A stretch of 64,000 bases of DNA, taken from an uncultured Psychroflexus sp. (GTDB lineage: Bacteria > Bacteroidota > Bacteroidia > Flavobacteriales > Flavobacteriaceae). The DNA is taken from assembly GCA_913056525.1 (NCBI GenBank), contig CAJXLO010000003.1:1-64000 (forward strand). The letters are read 5' to 3'. This document shows, in pieces, positions 8,322 through 12,770 of the stretch. How positions within the stretch are numbered: position 1 is the first letter of the stretch; the number at the start of each line of letters is the position of its first letter. The translations under genes were made by a program, and so were the position numbers. Below the pieces are notes generated by a model, which saw only the letters and a program-made list of their open reading frames with translations, was not told where the DNA came from and did no database searches.

Positions 8322-9395
8322 ATGTCAAATGTTTATCCACTTCAAATAAAGGCAGTAGAAAAGGAAACCGATGATTGTACGGTTGTTTCCTTTGATGTTC
8401 CTGATGAGTTGAAAGCCGAGTTCCAATTCCAACAAGGCCAGCATCTCACGCTTGAACGCCAAAACGGTGATGAAACCATCAGACGTTCTTATTCGCTTTG
8501 TAGCAGTCCGGTGGATGATGAATGGCAGGTTGCGGTCAAAGAAATTCCCGAGGGACGATTTTCTACCTTTATCAATCGTGAACTAAAAGCTAATGATCAG
8601 CTGAATGTCCTGCCGCCCAGTGGCGAATTTGGTGTTCCAGTCGATACCAAAGCATCAAAAAACTACTTGTTCTTTGCCGCAGGTAGCGGTATCACACCGA
8701 TCATTTCCATGATCAAAACCCATCTCGCTAAAGAACCAAATTCGAAATGTCAGCTATTTTATTTGAATAAGACCGCAGGATCCATTATCTTTAAAGAACG
8801 TTTAGAACAACTGCGAAATCAGTTCTTTGGAAGGTTGGAGATCTATTATTTCCTTACACGCGAACAGCGCGATATCGAATTGTTTAACGGTCGATTGGAT
8901 GCAGATAAGGTCAATACGCTTTGTAACACCCTGATCGATATTGATGAGGTAAATGATGTGTTCATCTGCGGACCGGAGCAAATGCTGTTCACCATTCGGG
9001 ATACGCTGGTCGAAAATGGATTAGCAAAAGACAGAATTCATTACGAACTTTTCGTGACCGGATTGAGTGAAGCGGATAAAGCGCGTGTGAGCCAATTAAG
9101 AGAACAGCAAAAAAGCGGTTCAAAGATCACTATCTTAGATGGTGGGAAGGAATTTCATTTCACCATGTCACAAGAAGATGACAACGTGCTCGATGCTGGA
9201 TTAAAGGCAGGCGCTGATCTGCCATTTGCCTGCAAAGGCGGCGTTTGTAGCACTTGTAAATGTAAGATCATAGAAGGTGAAGCAGAAATGAAGATCAATT
9301 ACGCTTTAGAAGAAGATGAACTGGATAAAAAATATTTATTGAGTTGTCAGGCGATACCAACAACCGATAAATTAGTAATAGATTACGACGTTTAA
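8322..9395 (+). CDS. paaE: 1,2-phenylacetyl-CoA epoxidase subunit PaaE (FAD/NAD(P) reductase with 2Fe-2S ferredoxin domain)
   Basis: [37 protein letters not shown] motifs; adjacent paaA/B/C/D. Confidence 0.95.
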
Positions 9396-9406
9396 AAACA
9401 AAACTT

Positions 9407-10351
9407 ATGGAAGACAATGTAAAAGCAATGGAAGCGATATTCGAACAGAAAATCGCTAATGACGAAAAGATCGAGCCTAAAGACTGGATGCCGGAGAAAT
9501 ACCGGAAAACGCACATCCGTCAAATTTCACAGCATGCGCATTCTGAGATCGTAGGGATGTTACCAGAAGGCAACTGGATCACCAGAGCGCCTTCTTTAAG
9601 ACGTAAAGTAGCTTTATTAGCAAAAGTTCAGGATGAAGCCGGTCATGGTCTTTACCTGTATTCCGCCTGTGAAACCTTAGGGATCTCTCGCGAAGAAATG
9701 TATGAGCAATTACATAGCGGAAAAGCTAAATATTCCAGTATTTTCAACTACCCAACATTAACCTGGGCAGACATGGGTGCGATAGGTTGGTTAGTAGACG
9801 GCGCAGCGATCATCAATCAGGTGCCGCTCTGCAATACTTCATTTGGTCCTTACGCCAGAGCCATGGTTAGGGTTTGTAAGGAAGAAAGTTTTCATCAGCG
9901 TCAGGGTTATGAGATCATGATGACACTTTGTAACGGAACACAAGAACAGAAAGATATGGCACAAGATGCTCTGAACCGTTGGTGGTGGCCAAGTTTAATG
10001 ATGTTCGGTCCGAATGATGCGGATTCTACTCATACGGAACAATCCATGAAATGGAAGTTGAAAAGAAAGACCAATGACGAGCTACGTCAGCAGTTTATTG
10101 ATCAAACTGTACCGCAAGCTGATATCCTGGGATTAGAAGTACCGGACCCGGAACTGAAATACAATCACGAGAAAGGTCATTATGACTTTGGCGATATCAA
10201 TTGGGACGAATTCTGGCAAGTGGTCAAAGGTCACGGACCTTGCAATAAAGAAAGGATCCGCGATAGAAAGAACGCCTGGGAAAACGGCGAATGGGTAAGA
10301 GAAGCTGCGAATGCCTACGCGGAGAAACAAGCAGAAAGAAAAGCGAGTTGA
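9407..10351 (+). CDS. paaA: 1,2-phenylacetyl-CoA epoxidase subunit PaaA
   Basis: [35 protein letters not shown] di-iron motifs. Confidence 0.97.
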
Positions 10352-10465
10352 TACTCAGGTAATAGATTTGAGATGTTAGATATAAGACTTTTGACCATCA
10401 CAGTTTCTTTAGAGTGCAAATGAGCTTTTTTGACAACCGATAACTGAAAACAGATATAATAAAAT

Positions 10466-10930
10466 ATGAAAAAACAGCGAATCTATTTAGATACATCTGT
10501 TTTTGGTGGTTATTTTGATAATGAGTTCTTAGAATTTACTCAGCCATTTTTCAATAGAATTTATAAAGGAGAATTTGTAATACTATTTTCAGCAGTATTG
10601 CAAAGAGAATTGAAACCAGCACCTAAGAAAGTTATCAAATTGATTTCTAATTTAAGTGATGATAATACTGAATTTTTAGACGAAAATAATTCTGCTGTAG
10701 AATTAGCAAGAGAATATATATCGGAAAATGTAGTTGGAAAAACGAGTTTTGCAGACTGTCTTCATATTGCACTTGCAACGGTAAATCAAGCTGATTTACT
10801 TGTCAGTTGGAATTACAAGCATATAGTTAACATAGAGCGAATTCGTGGTTATAATTCTATTAATATAAAAAATGGATATAAGCAACTAGAGATTCGCTCA
10901 CCAAGAGAATTAATGAATTATGAAAACTAA
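10466..10930 (+). CDS. PIN-domain protein, probable type II toxin (VapC-like)
   Basis: MKKQRIYLDTSVFGGYFDNEF, SFADCLHIALATVNQADLLVSWNYKHIVN: PIN acidic residues. Confidence 0.85.
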   Translation: MKKQRIYLDTSVFGGYFDNEFLEFTQPFFNRIYKGEFVILFSAVLQRELKPAPKKVIKLISNLSDDNTEFLDENNSAVELAREYISENVVGKTSFADCLHIALATVNQADLLVSWNYKHIVNIERIRGYNSINIKNGYKQLEIRSPRELMNYEN

Positions 10931-11075
10931 AACAAAAAAAGATTTTGATGCAGTCAAATTTGCCAGAGAACAAAAAAAAGATCTTAGTGCAAAATTATCA
11001 AATATGACCAATGATGAAATTATTGATTATTTCAAAAAAATAAAGCGGGTAAGTAAAATAAAACCAAACGCTTAA
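10920..11075 (+). CDS. 51-aa probable cognate antitoxin (not in ORF track)
   Basis: MKTKTKKDFDAVKFAREQKKDLSAKLSNMTNDEIIDYFKKIKRVSKIKPNA; ATG overlaps the 3' end of the PIN gene by 11 nt. Confidence 0.7.
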   Translation: MKTKTKKDFDAVKFAREQKKDLSAKLSNMTNDEIIDYFKKIKRVSKIKPNA

Positions 11076-11132
11076 TTTGATTGTAATAGTAAAGATTTTA
11101 TCAGCATAATATAACTGACAAAATAAAAAAAT

Positions 11133-11417
11133 ATGAAAAAAGATTGGCCACTTTGGGAGGTTTTCGTTAGAAGTAAGAATGGTTTAGAACATCGGCATTT
11201 TGGTAGTCTTCACGCGCCAGATGCAGAAATGGCCATAAAGAACGCCCGCGATGTTTACACACGGCGAAGCGAAGGTGTGAGCATCTGGGTGGTAGAATCT
11301 AAGAATATAACCGCCTCAAATCCGGATAATAACGCAGAAAATTTTGATCCGGCCGCTGATAAAGCTTATCGGCACCCTACGTTCTATGACCTACCGGATG
11401 ATGTAAAACATATGTAG
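11133..11417 (+). CDS. paaB: 1,2-phenylacetyl-CoA epoxidase subunit PaaB
   Basis: WPLWEVFVRSKNGLEHRHFGSLHAPDAEMAIKNARDVYTRRSEGVSIWVV. Confidence 0.97.
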   Translation: MKKDWPLWEVFVRSKNGLEHRHFGSLHAPDAEMAIKNARDVYTRRSEGVSIWVVESKNITASNPDNNAENFDPAADKAYRHPTFYDLPDDVKHM

Positions 11418-11420
11418 CTC

Positions 11421-12179
11421 ATGAACAATAAGAACTTACAACAATATATTTATAGTATTGCCGATAATGCGTTGATCCTAGGTCAGCGACTAGGTGAACT
11501 TTGCGGTCACGGACCTACGCTTGAAACCGATATTGCTTTAACTAATATCGCCTTAGATTTGTTAGGACAAACTCGTAGTTATTATCAATACATCGCGCAA
11601 GAATTGATGAAGGAAGATCAAACGGAAGATGATCTGGCTTTTTTACGTAAAGAACGCGAGTACAGGAACGTTCAACTCGTGGAGCAGCCCAATCACGACT
11701 TTGCTTACATCATCGTACGTCAATATTTCTTTGATGTTTTTCATCATCGGTTTTTAAGTAGATTGCAACGTTCAAAAAATGTCAATCTGGAAGCCATCGC
11801 TTCTAAAAGTATAAAAGAAGCCGCTTATCACGAAAGATTTTCTGGAGATTGGCTTAAAAGATTAGGTGATGGCACAGCAGAAAGCCATCAGCGCGCCCAG
11901 CAAGCGGTTGATGACCTTTGGGTATATACCGATGAGCTTTTTCATACAACTGATGATGATCAGGCTTGTATTGATGCCGGACACGGCGTGGATGTAACAT
12001 CTTTTAAGTCTGAATATTTTCAGGTGATCACTGATTTGCTTGAGGAAGCAACTTTGAAAGTACCGGAAACTGAATTTTTCCAGAAAGGTGGTAAAAAAGG
12101 AATCCATACAGAACATATGGGTTATTTACTTGCCGAAATGCAATATATGCAACGAACGTATCCTGATATGAAGTGGTGA
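11421..12179 (+). CDS. paaC: 1,2-phenylacetyl-CoA epoxidase subunit PaaC
   Basis: NALILGQRLGELCGHGPTLETDIALTNIALDLLGQTRSYYQYIA. Confidence 0.97.
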   Translation: MNNKNLQQYIYSIADNALILGQRLGELCGHGPTLETDIALTNIALDLLGQTRSYYQYIAQELMKEDQTEDDLAFLRKEREYRNVQLVEQPNHDFAYIIVRQYFFDVFHHRFLSRLQRSKNVNLEAIASKSIKEAAYHERFSGDWLKRLGDGTAESHQRAQQAVDDLWVYTDELFHTTDDDQACIDAGHGVDVTSFKSEYFQVITDLLEEATLKVPETEFFQKGGKKGIHTEHMGYLLAEMQYMQRTYPDMKW

Positions 12180-12269: not shown

Positions 12270-12770
12270 ATGACACTAAACGATATACATATAGACAACC
12301 AACTTTATCCGATACTGAAAAACGTATCCGATCCGGAAATACCGGTTTTGTCTATTATAGATTTGGGTGTTGTTCGTTCCGCTCATCTGGAAGATGGAAA
12401 AGCTAAAGTAGAGATCACGCCAACTTACAGCGGCTGCCCGGCGATGGATATGATCACTGATGAAGTTGAAAAAGCTTTGCGGGAAAAAGGTTATGAGCCG
12501 GAAGTCAAGCTCATTCTCTCACCAGCCTGGACCACCGATTGGATGACGGAAGAAGGCAAAAAGGCATTAAAAGATTATGGTATTGCACCGCCAACAGACG
12601 CTGTTTCTGATAAACAAGCCTTATTAGGCAATAAAAAAGTTATTGAATGTACAAACTGTGGCTCTACTAATACTAAATTGGTCAGTCAATTTGCTTCCAC
12701 CGCCTGTAAGGCCATGTTTCAATGTGAAGATTGCGGAGAGCCTTTTGATTACTTTAAATGTTTGACCTAG
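12270..12770 (+). CDS. paaD: 1,2-phenylacetyl-CoA epoxidase maturation protein PaaD (MIP18/DUF59 plus Cys cluster)
   Basis: VSDPEIPVLSIIDLGVVR, PTYSGCPAMDMI, C-terminal CTNCGSTNTK...CEDCGEPFDYFKC. Confidence 0.95.
   Translation: MTLNDIHIDNQLYPILKNVSDPEIPVLSIIDLGVVRSAHLEDGKAKVEITPTYSGCPAMDMITDEVEKALREKGYEPEVKLILSPAWTTDWMTEEGKKALKDYGIAPPTDAVSDKQALLGNKKVIECTNCGSTNTKLVSQFASTACKAMFQCEDCGEPFDYFKCLT

Follow-up and report, generated by a model that had tools for sequence, protein, structure and literature searches.

Toxin-antitoxin (TA) systems of the VapBC type pair a PIN-domain toxin with a small partner encoded next to it, with the antitoxin gene located upstream. In HigBA, HicAB, and MqsRA, by contrast, the toxin gene is upstream and the antitoxin gene overlaps or adjoins it, as in the pair described here. 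The toxin folds and antitoxins of these three systems differ from those of our pair. The reverse order has also been reported in Synechocystis, at some of its TA loci (PMC4963859), and a GNAT family of Geobacillus has been proposed to have the toxin gene first (PMC6929052). Integrons often carry TA pairs as cargo (e.g., PMC7923331). According to the IntegronFinder 2.0 survey of 2022 (PMC9024848), only integrases without cassettes had been known earlier from the Bacteroidetes proper, and Salinibacter ruber then provided the one complete integron.

The locus analyzed here consists of a PIN-domain gene and an overlapping open reading frame (ORF) for a 51-aa protein, located within the phenylacetate (paa) operon of an uncultured Psychroflexus sp. 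(assembly GCA_913056525.1, contig CAJXLO010000003.1, positions 1 to 64,000; this 64,000-nt stretch is referred to as the window). The draft genome is 80% complete, consists of 93 contigs, and appears to be a metagenome assembly. Like VapBC, the pair combines a PIN toxin with a predicted VapC fold and catalytic residues with an adjacent small partner. Unlike VapBC, it has the toxin gene first and a partner without a recognized DNA-binding domain (AbrB, RHH, Phd, or HTH). Since two features that define VapBC, the gene order and the recognized DNA-binding antitoxin, are missing, the locus is most aptly described as a PIN TA pair with the toxin first, from a family that has no name; it would work like VapBC. 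The most probable reading, to which we assign a probability of about 0.75, is that this is a complete toxin-first TA pair of the PIN family whose usual carrier within this genus is a chromosomal integron and which has moved to the gap between paaA and paaB. The locus brings together subjects that are usually studied apart: PIN toxins encoded ahead of an unnamed antitoxin, the integron cassettes of Bacteroidota, and the occurrence of a TA pair in a catabolic operon. In the literature searched, which left most subscription papers out of reach, we found no description of attC arrays in this genus or of a PIN/51-aa pair inside a paa operon.

The gene pair between paaA and paaB

The operon is encoded on the plus strand in the order paaE (8322..9395; 357 aa), paaA (9407..10351; 314 aa), paaB (11133..11417; 94 aa), paaC (11421..12179; 252 aa), and paaD (12270..12770; 166 aa). 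PaaA, PaaB, PaaC, and PaaD all exceed the respective NCBIfam cut-offs (543 bits with TIGR02156, 149 bits with TIGR02157, 278 bits with TIGR02158, and 187 bits with TIGR02159), and PaaE, at 405.5 bits, falls just under the TIGR02160 cut-off of 420.8. Between paaA and paaB, and in the same direction, lie an intact PIN gene (10466..10930; 154 aa) and the ORF for the 51-aa protein (10920..11075), which overlap by 11 nt in different frames. A stretch of 114 nt (10352..10465) separates the pair from paaA and a gap of 57 nt (11076..11132) separates it from paaB. The initial annotation had placed the two ORFs at these coordinates and in these frames, and its impression that the insert is more AT-rich than its flanks also held. 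The GC content of the insert is 25 to 29%, compared with 40 to 45% in the paa genes; in 300-nt windows, it drops from 40 to 45% to 24 to 31% at the insert, and GC3 is 0.18 in both insert ORFs versus 0.33 to 0.45 in the paa genes.

The assignment of the larger ORF draws on profile matches, a multiple alignment, and structural modeling. The window copy matches the PIN domain (Pfam ID PF01850) weakly (E = 1.6e-4; 22.7 bits with a cut-off of 23.6), and 28/32 members of the toxin family match it. Alignment of 32 relatives identifies D9, E48, D97, and N116 as invariant acidic/catalytic residues. The AlphaFold model (pLDDT 89, pTM 0.85) has VapC/FitB proteins as its top Foldseek matches (TM about 0.55 to 0.6, E-values from 2e-4); the toxin fold is thus predicted to be VapC-like, and, judging from this fold, the protein would have RNase activity. 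No sequence match was found between the toxin and solved VapC proteins, and sequence searches of solved structures with the PIN and antitoxin families returned nothing meaningful.

The 51-aa partner belongs to no family in Pfam, NCBIfam, or PADLOC, and searches with 22 of its relatives gave no consistent family either. It is a conserved small protein (FDAV...KPxA family) with the consensus xFDAVKFMRxQRDKLSxKLSKMTKEEIxEYFKK...IKPSA, whose orthologues occupy the same overlapping position with respect to a PIN gene in dozens of loci; in nearly all full-length Bacteroidota relatives, its gene overlaps the end of the PIN gene. In comparisons of the window copy with its relatives, pN/pS is 0.19 to 0.28 for the toxin and 0.25 to 0.45 for the partner, and by this measure both ORFs are under purifying selection. 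Given this selection and the conserved overlapping position, the small ORF, which the initial annotation had singled out as a candidate antitoxin, is more than a chance reading frame. In the mechanism that we propose, the PIN protein would slow growth as an Mg-dependent RNase, its 51-aa partner would bind and block it, and the overlap of the ORFs would couple translation of the antitoxin to that of the toxin.

Gene order and decay in the toxin-first family

Toxin-first pairs of this family are widespread in Bacteroidota, with distant versions at loci assigned to Spirochaetota, Chloroflexota, and others, where the partner likewise comes after the PIN gene. The gene order in the window was described initially as the reverse of that in VapBC, which is true, yet members of this family normally have this order whenever a partner can be recognized. 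The suggestion of a plasmid-style origin fared less well, since the close relatives are integron cassettes and only distant ones are found on plasmids. The latter are pairs on Leptospira plasmids, distant matches at 44 to 48%, with the toxin gene first, an 8-nt overlap, and a replication-initiation gene next to them. A phage or plasmid origin was set aside, as there was no phage match and the only plasmid matches were these distant ones. Within the genus, the pair is patchy, being found in 5 of the 26 congeneric genomes, and the closest intact relative of the window pair is only 78% identical, so that the direct donor is unsampled.

The family shows a one-sided pattern of decay. A broken or truncated toxin accompanies an intact partner at 23 loci, about 20 of which are distinct once duplicates are removed, and the reverse, a broken partner next to an intact toxin, is seen at no locus among the Bacteroidota relatives. 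On the basis of length alone, roughly 3/4 of random lesions would be expected in the toxin gene, so that 20 out of 20 corresponds to a p value near 0.003. Part of this toxin-only decay may reflect sequencing frameshifts in draft genomes. As far as sequence comparison can tell, it is the pattern expected of a TA pair, and the family resembles type II TA systems both in the conservation of the adjacent pair and in that the toxin is never kept without the antitoxin at the Bacteroidota loci. We propose that the pair persists because losing the antitoxin alone is harmful. Toxin-only decay at 23 loci and conservation of the small ORF both favor the original description of the insert as TA-like.

These observations also bear on the view that the locus is not a TA system at all, with the PIN protein serving as a housekeeping RNase and the small ORF encoding an incidental or regulatory peptide. 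In its favor, the window copy matches PIN only weakly and the partner lacks a known family or antitoxin domain, but a patchy distribution with carriage on cassettes and plasmids is what one expects of a TA pair rather than of a housekeeping gene, as is the decay of the toxin next to an intact partner. We regard this view as quite improbable. Should the pair prove to be no more than a passenger in its operon, the family would still offer a clean comparative signature of TA behavior.

Several loci show unusual remnants or rearrangements of the pair. Two of them (L062:3902-4420 and L064:416-934) encode a natural in-frame fusion of a GNAT-like stretch, the C-terminal half of the PIN protein, and a complete antitoxin-like protein. 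At several others, L066 to L072, the toxin is reduced to its final 35 to 60 residues and the antitoxin is intact.

Integron cassettes, attC sites, and integrases of the genus

Congeners of the window organism carry the pair as an integron gene cassette bounded by attC sites. Thus, in locus L112 of genome G009, attC sites at 1308-1437 and 2105-2236 flank the pair (1501-2107), and the stop codon of the antitoxin gene lies inside the R'' box (GCCTAAC). Cassette arrays are also seen in L133 and L143 to L145, and in G009 and G010 arrays of 127- to 138-nt attC sites extend for tens of kilobases. According to the covariance model, on which the attC assignments rest, such sites are present in 27/27 genomes of the genus, with up to 85 per genome. 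The window's own genome is included, with six attC sites on six contigs (C20, C34, C38, C42, C60, and C81), several of them near contig ends. Across Bacteroidota, 556 kb of sequence around PIN relatives contained 30 matches to the attC model, 30/30 on the strand of the PIN gene, and the antitoxin gene terminates in an RYNTAAC box in 25/62 relatives. The 127- to 138-nt attC sites found throughout the genus apparently represent large chromosomal integrons in Flavobacteriaceae, where one cassette of the pair comprises toxin, antitoxin, and attC. An attC scan of our own design that used loose boxes was discarded, since shuffled sequence gave as many matches as the real one; a stricter box filter, used next, gave 118 matches versus 72 in shuffles and was then superseded by the covariance model.

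The recombinase associated with these arrays was found upstream of the attC array and on the same strand in 4/4 arrays checked. It is encoded at L143:7977-9758 (plus strand) and L146:2716-4485 (minus strand), as well as at G011:C2:289386-290201 and G019:C1:2043317-2044120, and is about 590 aa long, although some congeners have a form of about 400 aa. The catalytic half is similar to both XerA and IntI, with an XerA-like protein as the best structure match. In contrast to canonical integron integrases, it lacks the IntI-specific insert and carries a 300-aa N-terminal extension. The 590-aa protein aligns in two pieces both with TIGR02249, where about positions 180-240 are missing, and with IntI4, where 186-247 are skipped. 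The N-terminal 300 aa matched no family and are rare beyond the genus, being detected, mostly weakly, in 7/251 genomes of the family.

Two other elements were seen near attC sites of the window's own genome. L148:2270-3112 encodes a reverse transcriptase similar to a group II intron protein. In L149, regular repeats at 1187-1423 and 2661-2864 (translated frames FNPNLFWIWSL and LKDQIQNKLGLK) possibly form a CRISPR-like array.

Probable insertion into the paa operon

The window copy can be compared with the TA cassettes of chromosomal integrons and CALINs, since its relatives in congeners are flanked by attC sites within large arrays; the copy itself, however, is not part of an array and has no attC that could be detected. 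PaaB is present in 24/26 congeneric genomes, and the paaA-paaB gap is readable in 22 congeners (20 loci plus L190 and L191); G009 has no paaA within 7 kb upstream of paaB. None of the 22 readable gaps, which span 29 to 528 nt, contains a PIN gene, and three contain a small gene of the 23S_rRNA_IVP type. This comparison with relatives, which the initial annotation had suggested, indicates that the pair is an insertion; its loss from all other lineages is less likely. The pair was probably acquired by the window lineage. The congeners closest by PaaB, G026 and G010, have empty gaps of 118 and 129 nt, similar in length to the 114-nt stretch between paaA and the toxin gene in the window.

DNA homology between the window and the cassettes starts at 10463-10466, at the toxin start, and fades within the antitoxin gene. 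The stretch at 10352..10465 shows no homology to the cassette leader of the congeners, with its R' box and TAnnTTTG box. The covariance model found no attC in the window up to E = 10 and none in 29 paa loci of relatives; no R' or attC relics flank the window pair, and alignment of its flanks with cassette flanks is at chance level. The antitoxin tail (11060..11076, plus strand; AAAACCAAACGCTTAAT) matches the cassette end AAGCCCAGTGCCTAAC, where the stop codon sits in the R'' box of attC, save for a change of the last base from C to T, and may therefore be an R'' relic; the tail in the form AAACCAAACGCTTAAT is likewise still similar to the cassette end. Synonymous sites are near saturation (pS 0.62 even with the closest cassette), so that a decayed attC would be indistinguishable from one that was never present. 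The copy would have been transferred to the gap without a functional attC, or the attC would have been lost since. It may have arrived through illegitimate recombination, or through the integrase acting at a secondary site, with the attC lost afterwards. Integrase-mediated integration of the attG type was not retained as an explanation: it would bring an attC, whose past presence or absence is not demonstrable at such divergence. Both the toxin gene and paaB begin with AAAATATGAAAAAA, a microhomology that might have been the junction of the insertion. The stretches before paaB and before the toxin gene are weakly alike (p = 0.002 with the shared start codons and 0.09 without them), and a target duplication was not adopted, the latter value being suggestive only.

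Other genes have also entered the paa gaps of the genus. An intact MntA/HepT pair lies in the paaB-paaC gap of G023 (L097), and the paaC-paaD gap of G008 (L096) contains a DUF433 gene and a DUF5615 toxin gene interrupted by stop codons. These resemble the window pair as TA-type pairs inserted in the paa operon, but they consist of unrelated proteins, occupy other gaps, and have the antitoxin-type gene first. Four-helix 23S_rRNA_IVP genes are found in paaA-paaB (L089, L090, and L102) and paaB-paaC (L098, L099, and L107) gaps. The initial premise that epoxidase genes are contiguous therefore holds only in part: within this genus the paa gaps are loose and often contain other small genes. Gaps of more than 300 nt account for 8/104 paa gaps and 0/71 trp gaps in relatives (Fisher p = 0.02); trp genes being far more tightly packed, the excess points to permissiveness and not to a special target. 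We propose that the site is tolerated because paa gaps are loosely spaced and a co-directional insertion leaves the operon unbroken.

These data are also consistent with the pair being a neutral passenger, i.e., an ordinary acquired TA locus that entered a permissive gap by illegitimate recombination and has no functional link to phenylacetate catabolism, with the integron merely the place where its relatives are stored. The absence of both attC and R' at the insertion, the possible microhomology at the two AAAATATGAAAAAA starts, and the unrelated small genes in paa gaps, which have no counterpart in the tight trp operon, all fit this view, whose chances we rate at slightly below even. It differs from the preferred reading only in the route and in the lack of an operon-level benefit; the two intact ORFs and the purifying selection on them argue that the pair is not simply decaying. 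We conclude that the pair is real and that it is probably an acquired and functional member of an integron-cassette TA family, fixed in a catabolic operon. Overall, what the initial annotation observed has been confirmed, and its interpretation has been upheld with respect to an acquired TA-like insert, if not a plasmid-style source.

In 24/55 relatives (a raw count), a TAnnTTTG-type box occurs no more than 70 nt from the start of the toxin gene, whereas none is seen over this distance in the window; the pair is thus probably read with the paa genes. Having no clear promoter of its own, it would be transcribed from the paa promoter. Co-expression with the operon would make the pair a testable case of how TA genes pass from mobile storage into core metabolism. 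Such expression could make loss or silencing of the operon costly and lead to selection of the pair as its stabilizer, which would agree with the co-directional insertion, the lack of a cassette-type box directly before the toxin gene, and TA-type insertions that arose independently in three paa gaps of a single genus (the window, G023 paaB-paaC, and G008 paaC-paaD). However, the toxin half of the G008 pair is already broken, 22 congeners keep paa without the pair, and non-TA genes enter paa gaps as well, so that we consider operon addiction improbable. A broader scenario, in which the genus runs large chromosomal integrons with a non-canonical recombinase (an undescribed N-terminal region of 300 aa joined to a catalytic domain of the XerA/IntI type that lacks the IntI-specific insert), and TA cassettes escape into metabolic operons, losing attC and turning from cargo into fixed operon-borne addiction modules, with the phenylacetate operon as a repeated landing site, is speculative and, taken as a whole, rather unlikely.

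Sequence alone leaves some room for an assembly join at the insert. The draft genome is fragmented, and integron repeats break assemblies, as illustrated by the six attC sites on six contigs. However, neither junction has an attC repeat, there is no cassette flank at the join, and the operon is continuous and intact on both sides with normal spacing, which makes an assembly or binning artefact that joined a cassette to the paa contig very improbable indeed.

Repeats are a further feature of paa gaps in this genus, which are filled by low-complexity arrays of degenerate units. Examples (AAGTATTGAGTACAAAG; TTAGATTTGAGATGTTAGATATAAGAC) are seen in the paaA-paaB gap of L190 from G014 and at positions 10352-10400 of the window. 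Some of the 23S_rRNA_IVP inserts are flanked by degenerate repeats, e.g., GAAGTTGAAGTTGAA...TTTCAACTTCAACTTC, that resemble imperfect inverted repeats.
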